Of a stretch of DNA of 24,476 nt, positions 4,456-15,677 are shown one piece after another. Numbering within the stretch: the first letter of the stretch is position 1; each line of letters starts with the position of its first letter. Under the pieces are notes generated by a model, which did not search any database, was not told where the DNA came from, and saw only the letters and a list, made by a program, of their open reading frames with translations. The position numbers were made by a program, and so were the translations under genes. The stretch is from a virus, in IMG/VR virus record IMGVR_UViG_3300020443_000129, positions 1 to 24,476 of that record; one strand, 5' to 3'.

Positions 4456-7400
4456 CTTTTTGTCCCCATGATAATGAGACCGGCATAGTTGATATTTACG
4501 TTTCCTATTGCGTTGTAGCCTTGGACCTTAACGGTCACGCCATATTGAGTTCCGCAATCCAATATGCCGTTCGGCCCCGGGTTGTCACCTGCACCTACTT
4601 CGTGCTTCACAGCGCCATCTAGAACAAAACGAAAGTAATTTCCGTTGCCTGTACTGACCGCCGAGAACCAGGCAAAGGCCCGACCACCCTCTGCATTGAT
4701 GTAGACGGATAGCAGGTCTCGCCAATTTCCGTTGCTGCTGATGTCACTGGTGCGTGACGTTCCTGTTGGGATGGTCACCGCCTGCCCGGCAATCTGCAGC
4801 GTGTCGACCTGTGCGTCTCCGATCTTGGCTCGCGTGATCGCTGCATTGCCGATCTTGGCGTTGGTGATTGCGCCGTTGCGAATATGGGCGTTCTGGACGT
4901 CGATGTTGAACAGCTTGCCATAATCCACATGGAGCTCATCGGCCTGGATGTAGTTGGCCTTCACCTTACCGTTCTCGACGATGAACGAGCCATCGGACGC
5001 CTTGAGCTTGGTGAACGTCAGGTACTGGATCAGCGCTTCTTTGATGTAGGTGGTGCTGCCCTGCACGAAGAAGGGGATGACTTCGCTTTCCGGCAGGCCC
5101 GGCGGAGCAACTGCAAACCTATCTGCTCGGACGATGAAATCGACCTGAGCCCCATCGTTTGCCAGTCCAATGCCGCCCACGAGGCCGTTGGCGTCTACGC
5201 GCAACGTCCACATGGCGCTGATCCTATCGCCTTGAGCATTGATCGCTGTCGTTGCCTGCTCCTCGACGCTGGCGATGTCCTGTCCAAGCTGCGTTTGAAC
5301 GGTGTTGATTTGCTGGATGCTGTACTCGTCACCGTCCTGCCGGTCGAGCACCTCCTGCTGGATGGCGTTGCTGTTTTCGGTTATCTGTTCGATGTCCTGC
5401 TGTAGTTCTGGCCAGAGGTCGGACTCCTTTATCTCCCCGCTAATGATGTCCATGATCACAGACGGGTCGTTGTCGGTCGTGGCCTGCACCGGATACCAGT
5501 CCGAGGCGCCGTAGGCGTTGACTCCTCGGATGTAGTAGTAATAGGTAGTGTCGGGGGATAGCTCAGTATCGGTGAGAACGGCGCCGACGCCGACACGTAC
5601 GGCATTTGACTCGATGAGCCCCGTCTCGAGCGCGACGTTAGAGCGCCAGAATTCCCACATTTGCCCGGGATAGAGGCCGCTGGGCGTCAGGGTGATGGTG
5701 AAGGTGCCAACGTCGATGTCCACGCTATCCGGCGGCGTCGGCAGCAGCAGACCGGCCACGTTGGTGGTCCGGTACGCCCAGGGCGACGCGGAGCCGGTAC
5801 CGGTGATGCCGCGGACACGGATCTGCCATTCACCCGGCTCTGCATCGAGGATGTCGAACGACGTGCCCGGGCCTGTGAAGGCCTCACCCCATGACACGTC
5901 ATTCGGCCCCTGCACCTCGGCAATATAACGGACGACTCGAGCGTCATCGCTGGGCGTCCAACTGACGGTGATCTTCTGGTGCTCGGTTCCGCCAGCCAGG
6001 TACTTGGATGCCTCGACGGTAATGGAGTAGGGCGCCGCCACCGGGCCGGTCGGGATCAGCGTGTAATCCTCGTCCGGCAGGTTGAGGCCCTGCTCGACGC
6101 GATCGTACTTCGTCGGGTCATGCTCGACGGCGGTGATCTGGTATATCGCTGTCTCCTGCTCAGCAACGGACAGCACCCGGAACTTGCGTGGCTCCACGTC
6201 TTGGCTCGACAGCATCCAGATGGCGCCACGGATCGGCTCAGCTGAGAGCGGGCTGACCAACTCGACATGATCACCGGCGAACCGGTCGACCTGCCTGCGC
6301 TCAATCCCCCCGGTGGGCAACAGCACGTCCAGGTACCAGTCGCTGCCGCTGACCTGCTCGGGCACCTGGTCAAGCACCAGGGCAGAGAGCCCCGGGCGAA
6401 CGATTCGGCCAGAAAGCCGGGCGCCGGCCGTGGTCGGGTCGTTGACTGCGATGATGTCGCCCGGGCGCAGGTCGGCATGGTCGACGCTGGCCTGGTAGGT
6501 GATCGTCTCGGTTTCAGCGCGCTCGCTGTAGAGCATCCATTTGCCAAGGCGGTGTGCCTGGCCGCGACTGGTGCAGCCTACGGCGGTGACGTCGATCTGC
6601 TTCCAGCCGAATTGCTGGACGGCATCGGCATCCTCAACGACCTCGACCTGGAGGCGATAGTTATCGCCAGGGTCGTTCCAGCTCACCAGAGCGACCGAGT
6701 GCCGGGCCTTGAGCGCGGTGCCGCTGTACTCGAATTCACCGTCGACGACATTGGCCGGTGACACCAGCTTGACCGGATCGGCCGGCATGTCGGCTGTCGC
6801 CATGACGGTATTGGCGCCCCAGTAGGTCATGCCGCGGAACGCAGTCGCCAGGGTGTCGAGCGCCTTGATGGCTTCCTCTCGGCTCGACAGCACGGTGTTG
6901 AAGGTAAAGCGCGGCTCTTGGCCGCCGAAGCCATCAGGGATCAGCTCGTCGCAGTATTGGGCGATCTGGTAGAGGCCCCACTTGTCGACGTTCTCCAGCC
7001 CGGCGCCGTACCGCTCGCTGGTGGCCAGATCGAGAAAGCACCACGCGGGGTTGTCGGTCCACGCCAGCTTGAACGAGCCGTTCCACAGGCCGGTGTATTC
7101 GCGAGTCTCGGGGTTGTAGTTGGTCGGCACCCGGACGATCAGGCCCTTGACGTCGTAGCTGCGCGAGGGGATCTGGCTGCCAAAATCCTGGGCATCGACC
7201 TCGAGCCCGACCAGTGCGGTATCGGGATACTGTAGCTTGGCGTCGATGATCTCGGTGTAAGTGGCCCAGTACGTCGCGTTGCGCAGGGTGGCGCTGCCGT
7301 TGTCGGGCGTCACTCGGCGCACGCGGATGTCCCAGGGGCCATCGCCGGTGAGCGGCACACGATAGGACCGCTGGTAGGGGCTGGTGGTCTTGCCCTTGAT

Positions 7401-10562: not shown

Positions 10563-13103
10563 TTACCTCTTGGCGAGCAGCCCGCCGGGGCGCTGCTGCT
10601 CGATGATGAACTGAGCGAACTGGGCCTTGTTGGCGCGCTTGAAGGCATCAGCCTGGCGTTCTGCATCTTGCTGTGTGGCGCCTGGCTGGGCTTCAACTGT
10701 GATCTGCGGGGCGTAGGTGATCTGCGGGGCCATCGAGGACGATGCGCTAGCGCCCACCAGGCCGCCATTGGCGTAGCCGGGCATGTTGTTGAGGCGCTCG
10801 AGCATAGGCAGGACGCCTGGCCGTTTCACCACTTCTCGGCGCACAACAAACTCTTCACCATGAACTACGCCTTTCGGTTCGTACTTGCCGCCAGGGCCTG
10901 TCCATCCACCCTCCGCAAAGCCCTGGAAGCTGCCAGCGCTCGAAGAGCCGTATGAAACTCCAAATGCGCTCCCGCCTGACGCGCTACCGAAAGCGCTGCC
11001 GATTAAGCCGCCCCAGTCAAAGCCTGAGATTGCCTCGACTGCGGGCTCGGTGATGCTCTTGCGAACCGCAAGGCGAGCGATGTCCTCGGCAATGCCGGCC
11101 AGGACTTCCCGGAAACCCTCGCCGCCCACGATGGCGTCCTCGAACGCGCTGGAGAAGGTCAGCCCGAGATCCCGAGTGAGGTCGTCAGTCTCCTTGACCT
11201 TCTCCGCCAGCCCGCCGGTGGCGATCTGCTCCATGAAGCCGCCGGTCAGCTCTACCGAATACTGTGTGCGCAGTCGCTCCTGGGCCTCAGCAAGGCGAAA
11301 TGTGTTGTCAGCGGCAGCTTTGAGGTCGAGAAGATCCATTTCCTCCCGAAACTGCCGGTGGGCAGCTTCAAGGGGGAATAAGCGATCGATCAGGCGCTGC
11401 TGGGACTCGGCGAGCTCTTTTGTGGCTTTGTCTGCTTCATCTGTGCTCTCAGCCAGGGCTCTTAAGCTGTTGGTGGGCTTTATGCTGCTTTCGCCCAGCG
11501 ATTCCAGGCGATTCTCAAGCTGGACAACAGCCTCGTCGTAGCTGGCAATCTCTGTTTCGATTTGCCGCACGGCTTCCACTGCTTGATTCCGCCCCGGGCC
11601 AGCGCCTGGGCCGATGCCGACATAGCCCGGCCCAGGGCCTTGCATCTGGATGGCGTCTCGTTCCGCTCGCGCTGTCTGCGCAGCTCGCTGTAGGTCCGCG
11701 ATATCAGCCGAGAGCTTGGATATGCCGTTCTTGAGCGCTGCTTCGCTGTTCATGTTGATTGAGTCTGTCAGCGCATCAACAGTGGAGGTGACTGACTCAA
11801 TTCTAGGCTGCACTAGGCCCAGTTCTTCTCGGAAGTAGTAGATGCTTCCAGCCGCCACAACGGCTGCACCTACGGGCCCGCCAAGGAGGGCTACAGCGCC
11901 GGACAGACCACGAGCCGCAATGCTGGCTCGCCCCATTGCCGCTGCCGCTGCGTTTGTCGCAGCCGTGTGAGCTCCTGCTGCCTCTGCAGCTCGAACTCTT
12001 GACGCAGAAAGAGCGTCAAGAGCGAATCTGTGAGCTGCTGTGCCTCGAGTAGCTTGCTCTTCGATACGGTTGGAACTCAGCATGACTTTTGCTGCTGCCA
12101 GCTCAGCAGCCGTGCGACGGGTCACAGACTGCGCCGCCAGAGCATCAGCCTTGGCGCTGGAGAGAGCTGCAGCCGCCTGGGTGGCCGAGGCAGCTGCTGA
12201 TGCAGATAGGGCCCCGATCAGGCGCCCTCCGATAACTATGGCCACGCCTCCCGCAGTATCGGCCATGACGTCCAGGTTGCTGACCAGTGTTGCTACGCCT
12301 TCACCGACAGTTCCAAGGACGTCACTCAGCTCGTCTCCATAGCCAGCGATCTGGCGAGATATCGATGTTGAGATAATGCGCTCAAGCTGTTGAAACTCCC
12401 CTCTCAGGTCGGCCAAGGCTTGTAGGTCGCTTTCAGAAAGGACAGCATTTAGTCGGTCGGCTTCATCGGCCATAGCCTTGAAGCCTTCGCCACCATTGCG
12501 AAGAAGTGGGATGAGCTCTGTGGTGTCGCTGGCCAGCGCCTCCAGATAGAAGGTTGTCTCTGACGCTGAGAGATTCGCCTTCTCAAGGCCATTGTAAATC
12601 GCTTGCAGGGCCTGCGGGCCGGACATGCGGGCCAGCTCGTCCACAGTCAGGCCGATCTTTGGCGCAATGCCTTCAAAGAAGTCCGCGAATTCGCCAGCAC
12701 CAGTCTGGAGGAAATCCCCGATGCGGTCCTGCGTGTCACGGAGAATATCTGCGAGCTTCTCCTGCTCCACGCCATAGGCTTCTGCGCCATAGGCTAGGCG
12801 CTGAAACTGCTCCGAGCTGGTGTCTGAGATGCGTGCAAGAGTTTGGATTTGCCGAGCGGAATCAGACGCCTGCCTTGCGACCGCTCCAAACGCAGCACCG
12901 CCAGCAGCAATGCTCGCGAGAGCTCCACTCGCAGCGAGAGCCGCTGCTTTTACGCGAGCAGCTGATTCAGTGACATCATTTAGCGAACCGGATGCCCTGT
13001 CACCAGCCCGATCGACATCGACCAGCCCACGTTCCACGCGCTTTAACGACCGCTCACCGCTACGGCTGTCGATCGCCAACTCAAGGCGGCTGGAATAAGG
13101 CAT
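10563..13103 (-). CDS. H: Tail tape measure protein H
   Basis: This protein of about 846 residues is the tape measure: the longest gene after J, located between the chaperone pair and M, with a [23 protein letters not shown] start typical of lambda-like tape measures. It is mostly helical and Ala-rich. Hydrophobic stretches at about 50-78 and 390-425 (the latter ending [16 protein letters not shown]) could enter the host membrane during DNA injection. The C-terminal part has a Gly/Ser-rich region and the common [23 protein letters not shown] segment. Lambda H is 853 residues, so tail length is probably similar. GGAG lies six bases before ATG 13103; the GTG at 13106 is too close to it. A terminator hairpin stands just upstream of the ribosome-binding site. 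Confidence 0.95.
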
Positions 13104-13120
13104 CACAATCTCCGGGCATT

Positions 13121-13200: not shown

Positions 13201-13614
13201 CTAAAACGCAGTGCGCGATAAATCGAGGGAACCGCTGGCGTCCATCGAAATCCGATATCGTTTGGTCTCGCCCGATTCCAAATCCGCCCCAAGCTCTTGA
13301 ACAAGGCTGGCACAGATACCTCCTCCGGTTGTAATGCCCAGAACGCTATCACCAGGGGCAACGTAGAAGGAAGCCGTCTCTTCGGGTTCGAACTCGGCGA
13401 CTTTCTTACCATCGACGTGCAAGCTGACGTTACACATCGAAAAGTTGATTCCCGAGTCTCTCGTCACTTGAACCGTCGCGTATGGGGAAGCCGGTACTGA
13501 CTGGAGGCCGAAGAGCCTACTATCCGGAACTTGGTCGGCTTGCTCTGCTGGAATCGGTGAGGTTGCGCATCCCGTCAGAAGCGCAGCGGCCGCGAGTGAC
13601 AGCCATCCCTTCAT
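13201..13614 (-). CDS. Predicted outer-membrane lipoprotein (moron candidate)
   Basis: The 137-residue product has a lipoprotein signal: MKGW, a hydrophobic stretch, then the lipobox LLTGC with Cys at residue 16. Ala after the Cys predicts sorting to the outer membrane. The mature part is beta-rich (ATVQVTRDSG, VSLHVDGKKVAEFEP, ETASFYVAPGDSVLGI, RYRISMD), resembling small periplasmic beta domains of the DUF2846 kind, without a firm match. Two Cys at about 61 and 100 could form a disulfide. It lies between the GT chaperone and the tape measure, where lambda has no gene. AGGGGA lies close upstream of the ATG, and the T-domain frame ends five bases before it. A surface lipoprotein that blocks superinfecting phage would fit, but this is inference. 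Confidence 0.8.
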   Translation of the reverse strand: MKGWLSLAAAALLTGCATSPIPAEQADQVPDSRLFGLQSVPASPYATVQVTRDSGINFSMCNVSLHVDGKKVAEFEPEETASFYVAPGDSVLGITTGGGICASLVQELGADLESGETKRYRISMDASGSLDLSRTAF

Positions 13615-13618
13615 GTTG

Positions 13619-14292
13619 TTATCCCCTGCTTTCCATGTATGCCCAGTCCATCTCCCGAATGACAGAGATGAACTCGTCCGCTGAGCAGGGTAGCACCATC
13701 ATCTGGCGCAAGGCAGCCATCTCAGACAACGGTATGGGTTGGATGGTACCGAAGCCGGCAGGCCTTGAAGGGGAGAGAAGGTCAAACAGATGCAGCCAGA
13801 AGGCGCAGCGCTCGTCGATCTCAGGCGGCTCAACCTGTCTAGAGAGATTGAGCGCCTTTGCGATCGTGGCGAGCTTGGTTTCTCGTCCGGCTGTTGTCAG
13901 GCGGTATTTGAGCGCTGCCGCGGCTTTTTTCCTTGGTCCTCAATGTCTTCACGACGAAAGTTGGACAGGTCGTTGGCCTGACTGAGAATGCGCGCCACCA
14001 GATCAGGATTGTCCAGCATCACCTCAACTGCATTTTCGATGCTGTAGGGGATCGGCTCGCCGCTGTCGTCTTCGACACCGCTCCAGTCTCGAAGAACGCC
14101 GGTGGCGATGGCCGTGTACAGGGCGCGCTCTTTCTCAGCAGGCTCGATCTTCTTCCGATAACCGGATTCCTCCAGCGCCTGCTCGTAAATGGGGTTGCCA
14201 GCTCGGGCGACCTTGAACTGGCCGCCCATGATTGCTAGCCAAACGCCCTGAGTGAAGGCGTCAGGTGAGTATCGTTTTGCATTGAAAGCCAT
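13619..14292 (-). CDS. GT: Tail assembly chaperone GT (candidate -1 frameshift fusion)
   Basis: A -1 slip on A AAA AAG (13924-13930) would extend the G protein by 101 residues to a TAA at 13619-13621, giving about 224 residues. The extension starts AAAALKYRLTTAGRETK, contains a FWLHLFDLLS helix and ends MDWAYMESRG. I translated it by hand; it has no stop across about 300 bases although it lacks an own start codon near the slip site. In lambda, G and GT arise the same way, and the T part recruits the tube protein to the tape measure. The position directly before the tape measure region fits exactly. GAGG about seven bases before the slip site may act as an internal stimulator as in dnaX, and CCGCGG follows closely. 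Confidence 0.8.
13897..14292 (-). CDS. G: Tail assembly chaperone G
   Basis: This is the unshifted chaperone of 131 residues, beginning MAFNAKRYSPDAFTQGVW. It is helical and acidic, with a KIEPAEKERALYTAIATGVL helix and IENAVEVMLDNPDLVARIL near the end. Lambda-type G binds the tape measure and, with GT, controls tail tube assembly; it is not in the mature tail. The frame extends upstream to 14451, but that part is Ser/Pro/Arg-rich shadow of the tube gene. ATG 14292 is preceded by AGGAAT and lies eleven bases after the tube stop. The zero frame ends shortly after the slippery site with KKPRQRSNTA, as expected when most ribosomes do not shift. Confidence 0.85.
   Translation of the reverse strand: MAFNAKRYSPDAFTQGVWLAIMGGQFKVARAGNPIYEQALEESGYRKKIEPAEKERALYTAIATGVLRDWSGVEDDSGEPIPYSIENAVEVMLDNPDLVARILSQANDLSNFRREDIEDQGKKPRQRSNTA
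13924..13930 (-). other. Slippery heptamer A AAA AAG
   Basis: Minus-strand AAAAAAG is in the X XXY YYZ register of the G frame (GGA AAA AAG). It is the strongest known class of bacterial -1 slip site, the one used in dnaX, and leads into the open T frame described for GT. Confidence 0.85.
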
Positions 14293-14302
14293 CGGGGATT
14301 CC

Positions 14303-15217
14303 TTATACCAGCACGCGGGTGACTTTGATTGGGGTGTTCTTGGCGGTGTAGTTGAGCGACACCTGCACGATGTCCTCGTTACCACCATCCGGCAGCTCGC
14401 CATCGATCTCGATCTCGGGCAGCTCGAAGGTGTAGCTGTTGCCAGCGGCATCGGTCAGAGGGAAGGACACAGCTATAGCTTCGCGGGTCAGCATCTTCTT
14501 CCACTGGTTCCAGGCCGCCTTACTCCAGGCCATGGTGAGCGACCCGGAGACGTTGGCCGATGTGGCAATCAGGGCGCCGGGACCGGTCTTGCCGAGGCAG
14601 CGCTGGGTTTTCATCGTGCTGTCGATCGACATGGACAGGGCGCTGATACAGGCCTCGCCGGCCAAGGTGGCGCCGTCGACCAGAATGTCGCCAACACTGG
14701 TGGCCGAGCCCATCGCCACGGTGGTTGTTTGAGGATTCACGGTGCCTGCTGCAGTCGGGTCGGTCTCGCCGTCCTCATAGCCGAGGCCCATGCCGGTGAA
14801 GCTGCAGGTCACCTTGCCTTCTTCGGGGATGTCGAGCTGCATGGCACCGATGTGCACGCCCTTGAAGGTTGAGTAGACGCCGATGTCCTTGAATGCCTTC
14901 ACGATGGTGAAGGTGTGGCGGTCAGCACCAATCTCCAGCACATCAGTCGCCCAGGTGCCGTAGAAGGCTGCCTCGAGCAGCTTGTCGAACGTGCCCGCGC
15001 TCATCTCGCCAGCCAGGTCGCCGGAGTAGTCGAGGCTGGTGATGATGCTGCCGCCCTGCATGCGCGTCTCGCGGATCTCAGCAGAGACCTCGGTGGAGAC
15101 GTTGGGCGTCAGGGTATTGCCGGTGAGGCGCAGGGTGTCCCAGGTCGCCGGATCGGGCGTTTCCCCAGGCGTGGACTCGGGAGCGAGGTAGGTTGCGATC
15201 TGAGAACCTGAGCTCAT
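14303..15217 (-). CDS. Major tail tube protein
   Basis: This 304-residue protein has the pattern of the phage tail tube family: an N-terminal ATYLAPESTPGETPDPATWDTLRLTGN, the acidic TEVSAEIRETRM loop, and GDLAGEMSAGTFDKLLEAAF. It has two related halves, each with a DYSGDL or NVSGSLTM strand, and is longer than lambda V; this two-part form is common in this tube family. It polymerises into the tail tube around the tape measure. GGAG lies six bases before the ATG, and a terminator hairpin is directly upstream of that site, which may let this high-copy gene be translated from its own transcript end or start. Confidence 0.9.
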   Translation of the reverse strand: MSSGSQIATYLAPESTPGETPDPATWDTLRLTGNTLTPNVSTEVSAEIRETRMQGGSIITSLDYSGDLAGEMSAGTFDKLLEAAFYGTWATDVLEIGADRHTFTIVKAFKDIGVYSTFKGVHIGAMQLDIPEEGKVTCSFTGMGLGYEDGETDPTAAGTVNPQTTTVAMGSATSVGDILVDGATLAGEACISALSMSIDSTMKTQRCLGKTGPGALIATSANVSGSLTMAWSKAAWNQWKKMLTREAIAVSFPLTDAAGNSYTFELPEIEIDGELPDGGNEDIVQVSLNYTAKNTPIKVTRVLV

Positions 15218-15278: not shown

Positions 15279-15677
15279 TTAGCCGACGCGGAAGGGCGTC
15301 GATACGTTCAGTTGATACCAGCCGTCAGAGGGGCCCGCGCGCTGCACTGACGAGGCGAGAGTCTCAAGGTGCCCGGTACGCCAGAGCTGCAGGTGCGCAG
15401 CCAGGGCGTCGGCAATCTGATACGCCTGGCGGCTGCCATGATTGTCCTTGGTGAACACCTGGCACATGATCAGTCCGGGACGGCGAACGCAGGGTTCGGA
15501 GCCGAGACCAGCGACGAAGCTGTCGCCGTGCTGGATGGTCAGCCGCACCCAGGGCTCCTGGTTGGCGATGGCTGCATCTACGTTCGGTCCGCTGGGGGCG
15601 CCGTCATAGGCCACGGGCCAGCCATCCCACGCCACCATGCGCGACTCGATAGCGATGCGGATCTTGTCGAAGGTCAA
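15279..15677 (-). CDS. Tail terminator-like protein (DUF4128-like)
   Basis: This 132-residue protein begins MTFDKIRIAIESRM, contains AIANQEPWVRLTIQHGDSF and QVFTKDNHGSRQAYQIADALAAHLQ, and ends in a short beta segment. This pattern matches phage proteins with DUF4128, which serve as tail terminators equivalent to lambda U, capping the tube at its head-proximal end. Its place between the gp10-like neck gene and the tube gene is the expected one. The start is TTG 15677, which overlaps the upstream stop (AATTGA) and has GAGG eight bases before it; the next in-frame ATG would remove part of the first helix. Confidence 0.8.
   Translation of the reverse strand: MTFDKIRIAIESRMVAWDGWPVAYDGAPSGPNVDAAIANQEPWVRLTIQHGDSFVAGLGSEPCVRRPGLIMCQVFTKDNHGSRQAYQIADALAAHLQLWRTGHLETLASSVQRAGPSDGWYQLNVSTPFRVG

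Follow-up and report, generated by a model that had tools for sequence, protein, structure and literature searches.

A slippery heptamer conserved among phage relatives marks a very probable lambda-type G/GT tail assembly chaperone pair

Introduction

Is an open stretch of about a hundred codons, lying in the -1 frame at the end of a short tail gene and lacking a start codon of its own near its beginning, expressed by frameshifting? The question is raised by a minus-strand locus in a 24,476-nucleotide stretch of viral DNA (IMG/VR virus record IMGVR_UViG_3300020443_000129; the whole stretch is hereafter called the window), for which the first-pass annotation had proposed a programmed -1 frameshift that makes a G/GT chaperone pair. 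Obtaining two chaperones from one message by slippage is an ordinary and well-known phage trick, and the lambda tail assembly chaperones gpG and gpGT were reportedly described by Xu, Hendrix and Duda in 2004.

Results

On re-reading the sequence we found the proposed coordinates of the gene, the heptamer, the -1 frame and its stop to be correct throughout. The zero-frame gene G (13897..14292, minus strand) encodes 131 aa from an ATG to a TGA at 13899-13897 and contains the slippery heptamer A_AAA_AAG (13924..13930, minus strand), which is followed by CC and stands in register with G, as is evident from its codon context (GAC CAA GGA AAA AAG CCG CGG). No stop occurs in the -1 frame between 13939 and the TAA at 13621-13619, giving 103 codons counted from the first slip codon, or the predicted 101 when counted past the two lysines, and ATG, GTG and TTG are absent from the first 40 codons of this frame. 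The extension T (13619..13930, minus strand) would form the C-terminal part of a GT protein of 224 aa. By itself, the heptamer is weak evidence: its letters are unremarkable, since AAAAAAG occurs twice in the window when 0.86 occurrences are expected, and an in-register X_XXY_YYZ appears near the 3' end in 3.4% of codon-shuffled versions of G. It is the relatives that raise the site, at its conserved position, far above chance (see below).

Both halves of the candidate GT protein resemble known tail assembly chaperones. G matches the PHROG profiles phrog_313 (E 9e-22) and phrog_8233 (E 7e-13), both annotated as tail assembly chaperone, and T matches phrog_3817 (tail chaperonin, E 4e-7). Joining the two improves the score against phrog_8233 to 76.1 bits, compared with 49.7 for G alone (a gain of 26 bits) and 16.1 for T alone, and the joined protein is colinear with this family almost end to end (20-244 of 271) and with phrog_313 over 26-240 of 258. 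Homology thus spans both halves, and these PHROG families already contain colinear G-T proteins. T of the window stays below the curated cut-off of the Pfam family Phage_TAC_18 (PF23812; 17.3 versus 27 bits), and 15 of 24 relatives of T match that family at E values up to 0.01 (best 1.6e-22). The predicted structure of T consists of five helices (pLDDT 84.9), and among its better matches in a fold search of viral proteins are tail assembly chaperones and pre-tape-measure chaperones, annotated as such and 262-268 aa long. For the predicted structure of G (pLDDT 79.4), the HK97 tail assembly chaperone 2ob9 ranked first in a fold search of the PDB, but weakly (E 0.16), and profiles of G and T, run against the PDB sequences, gave no convincing match to a solved chaperone. 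A tblastn search of phage records with T returned no matches, because T diverges too fast for a single-sequence search.

The neighbouring genes, all on the minus strand, place the pair in a tail module. Upstream of G lie the genes for the tail terminator (15279..15677; Pfam PF13554, E 1e-9; phrog_179, E 3e-34) and the tail tube protein (14303..15217; Pfam Phage_tube_2, E 6e-45), and beyond T follow a phage lipoprotein gene (13201..13614; phrog_890, E 7e-35) and the gene for the tail length tape measure protein (10563..13106; phrog_2854, E 2e-67). G and T therefore sit between the tube and tape measure genes, with the lipoprotein gene intervening after T. At the corresponding position, the related locus L014 encodes another protein, which resembles the lipoprotein at its start.

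To assess conservation, we collected G genes, including those in phage records, by similarity to G only, such that the presence of T was not a selection criterion, and we scored a gene as positive when an in-register X_XXY_YYZ within the last 30 G codons was followed by at least 80 open -1 codons. This combination was found in 36 of 37 G genes (window included) versus 5 of about 240 other open reading frames from the same loci; the raw background was 12 of 247, of which we removed 7 because they were the same G genes retrieved a second time, or near-copies of them. Many of the 37 loci are closely related, and by our reading they represent roughly 20 lineages. The lone exception (L041) has neither heptamer nor T. 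Scattered stops in the -1 frame of relatives, which the first-pass annotation had named as the observation that would speak against a frameshift, were looked for and the frame proved open in all 36 others, with T domains that align across the set. That the two-frame layout reflects faulty sequencing or a degraded gene has nothing in its favour beyond the frame disruption itself and is already refuted by the relatives, since they share this layout in dozens of independent records from isolated phages and prophages alike; we accord it practically no probability, all the more as T is under purifying selection (see below).

The sites of the relatives also bear on how the frame is changed. AAAAAAG, AAAAAAC, GGGAAAC, AAAAAAA and GGGAAAA are all found among them, and this variety, with the tandem-slip rule kept, argues for ribosomal slippage rather than transcriptional slippage on a homopolymer. 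Slippage of RNA polymerase on the A run could be invoked for the window, where the site is a short homopolymer of six A followed by G, yet six A are short for transcriptional slippage, and relatives carry G_GGA_AAC, G_GGA_AAG, G_GGT_TTT or A_AAA_AAC at the same place, sites that obey the tandem-slip rule without being long homopolymers. We therefore regard a transcriptional origin of the frame change as hardly credible.

A different reading dispenses with frameshifting: T would be a gene of its own, with an internal or non-standard start at which translation is coupled to the end of G. Some annotated relatives do list T as a "tail chaperonin" CDS of its own, and some T frames have an in-frame ATG, GTG or TTG within 40 codons. 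However, such codons are absent from the first 40 T codons of the window, as the first-pass annotation had noted for the region near the slip, and from those of 12 of 26 other loci. Moreover, when the stop of G comes immediately past the heptamer, the annotated T starts can lie far beyond it (147 nt in phage NP1 and 120 nt in phage PaMx25) and thereby drop conserved residues. The presence of the heptamer also goes with the presence of T, and the colinear G-T proteins of the PHROG families likewise speak for a joined product. An independently started T is thus very unlikely, and a GT fusion made by frameshifting is the reading that we retain.

Comparison of related T sequences, which had been proposed as a test for purifying selection, revealed that T is constrained in the -1 frame and in this frame only. 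The dN/dS ratio of T read in the -1 frame is 0.16 between the window and its closest relative (L022), 0.16 for L002/L016, 0.13 for L016/L018, 0.20 for L028/L029 and 0.03 for L008/L013; the L020/L021 pair is weaker, at 0.61. Third positions of the -1 frame change most between the members of such pairs, and when the same bases are read in the other two frames the ratio exceeds 1 wherever it is computable for these pairs.

A second sample came from prophages. Searching 275 genomes of the Vreelandella andesensis family (Halomonadaceae) with a G profile identified 15 G-like genes. Eight of them adjoin a tail-tube gene, and for every one of these the T profile finds a match in the -1 frame; a canonical heptamer is present in seven of the eight, the exception (L058) having an imperfect G_GAA_AAG. 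The remaining seven G-like genes lack T and heptamer alike and do not lie next to a tube gene. The association between heptamer and T (Fisher p 0.0014) is uncorrected for relatedness, and several of the seven T-less genes are close copies of each other. The prophage sample thus ties the heptamer signal to T. Extending the search for further prophages to the whole order added few new G genes.

The G-like genes that stand alone, having neither T nor heptamer, are those of L055-L057 and L059, L062:3554-3970 and L063:3363-3782, and tape-measure-like genes lie near the last two. In the L061 prophage, a G/T pair (2416-2889) is followed about 2 kb on by a second G-like gene (4981-5367) that also lacks T and heptamer and is located just before the tape measure gene.

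With regard to stimulators, GAGG indeed stands 7 nt before the heptamer (13938..13941, minus strand), as originally described, but the role of internal Shine-Dalgarno stimulator proposed for it did not hold up: we rejected it on the grounds that pairing to the anti-SD is weak (-5.9 kcal/mol) and that placement is not conserved, with spacing ranging from 4 to 18 nt across relatives. For the family as a whole, SD-like sites before the heptamer have a mean of -7.0 versus -4.3 for the background. RNA structure directly 3' of the heptamer is not significant in the window (z -0.2 to -0.9), and a downstream hairpin or pseudoknot as stimulator was likewise dismissed, as no consistent signal was detected beside the heptamer. 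A strong hairpin inside T (13824..13856, minus strand), present only in the window and L022, begins about 68 nt past the heptamer and extends to about 100 nt, farther away than a standard -1 stimulator would be. As to the slip context itself, CC is reported to be the dinucleotide that most favours a shift in E. coli when it follows A_AAA_AAG (PMC5009743). The tRNA-Lys genes examined in eight Halomonadaceae genomes, which are hosts of the prophage relatives, all have the anticodon UUU, and no match to a CUU tRNA-Lys was found in the same eight genomes; under this condition a single tRNA decodes AAA as well as AAG.

Discussion

Given the layout, the open -1 frame, the homology and the purifying selection observed by computation, the locus very probably encodes a lambda-type G/GT pair of tail assembly chaperones made by -1 frameshifting, as first proposed from the sequence: the colinear PHROG matches, the position between tube and tape measure genes and the conservation of T and heptamer in relatives all point to it, and the support from relatives is unusually good. 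What we infer from the known systems is that ribosomes slip here, how efficiently they do so, and what G and T bind. Most ribosomes would terminate at the TGA of G (13899-13897), and a minority would slip by -1 on A_AAA_AAG, where two tRNA-Lys would re-pair from AAA-AAG to AAA-AAA, and then read through T to give the 224-aa GT. If the pair works as in lambda, many G and few GT molecules would coat the tape measure protein, with the T part recruiting tail tube subunits. In lambda, the G part acts on the tape measure and the T part recruits the tube protein (PMC5009743).

The pair shares with lambda gpG/gpGT its place in the gene order, after the tail tube gene and before the tape measure gene, as well as the G-T layout, a short G whose in-register heptamer comes late, and a T extension without its own start. 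The lambda heptamer is G_GGA_AAG, unlike the A_AAA_AAG of the window, and the window proteins match other PHROG families. The heptamer had been described as of the dnaX type rather than the lambda type; it is indeed the A_AAA_AAG of dnaX, but the contrast with lambda is not distinguishing, as relatives interchange A_AAA_AAG, A_AAA_AAC and G_GGA_AAC-type sites. Beyond the identical heptamer, the E. coli dnaX system is comparable in that the hosts of the prophage relatives rely, in the genes examined, on tRNA-Lys(UUU) alone. The dnaX site is preceded by a well-placed SD and followed by a stable hairpin, whereas neither a strong SD at a fixed upstream spacing nor a stable hairpin about 5-6 nt downstream is evident in the window. 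Moreover, the dnaX shift shortens the product, whereas the proposed G/GT shift lengthens it.

Closer counterparts are the YuA-like phages (Mesyanzhinovviridae: MP1412, M6 and Bhz59; also NEU2024) and Nipunavirus (NP1 and PaMx25), which have a homologous G (about 30-38% identity) and a T that aligns with that of the window. We found a heptamer and an open -1 frame in those that we read (MP1412, NEU2024, Bhz59, NP1 and PaMx25), the sites differing from that of the window in being G_GGA_AAC, G_GGA_AAA or A_AAA_AAC. None of the YuA-like and Nipunavirus records opened annotates a joined G/T CDS, and MP1412 lists no T gene; among our loci, L007 (MP1412), L008 (NP1), L013 (PaMx25), L009, L010 and L006 all combine heptamer and open -1 frame with no joined CDS. 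Nested G/T chaperone genes have been described in Escherichia phage 9g, a distant relative of the YuA phages, for which the authors report a -2 shift on CCCUUUUUUU (PMC4276943), in contrast to the -1 shift proposed for the window.

These results confirm that the conserved tail-chaperone frameshift extends to largely uncultured phages and to phages of Halomonadaceae. Their value lies mostly in the correction of annotations and in the natural variety of heptamers: MP1412, NP1, PaMx25, R5C, AXL3 and Bhz59 have the same signal and no joined CDS, with T missing or separately annotated, and the occurrence of different heptamers at one homologous position across hosts would suit tests of how phages tune slippery sites to host tRNAs. 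One lead in this direction comes from the eight T-bearing prophages (loci within L046-L058; hosts G001, G030, G042, G144, G151, G227, G241 and G253). In the hosts of the four with A_AAA_AAG, the anticodon stem of tRNA-Lys(UUU) closes with A31-U39, and the other four sites (G_GGA_AAG twice, G_GGT_TTT and G_GAA_AAG) occur in hosts with G31-C39; L049 and L053 encode similar T proteins, and their heptamers differ in line with the closing pair of the host. It is conceivable, if rather unlikely, that the heptamer of this chaperone family is retuned when a phage changes host, a comparison confounded with host GC, and possibly with host kinship, and hence a lead only, since GC around the host tRNA-Lys genes splits the two groups as well (0.53-0.62 versus 0.63-0.66).

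Finally, when the window (13961-13619) is compared with L014/L022, which lie on one contig, the T proteins are 94% identical and the G proteins only 42%, and DNA identity, about 0.2-0.7 up to the AAAAAAG heptamer, jumps there to above 0.9. The slip site therefore doubles as a boundary of module exchange in the window/L022 pair.
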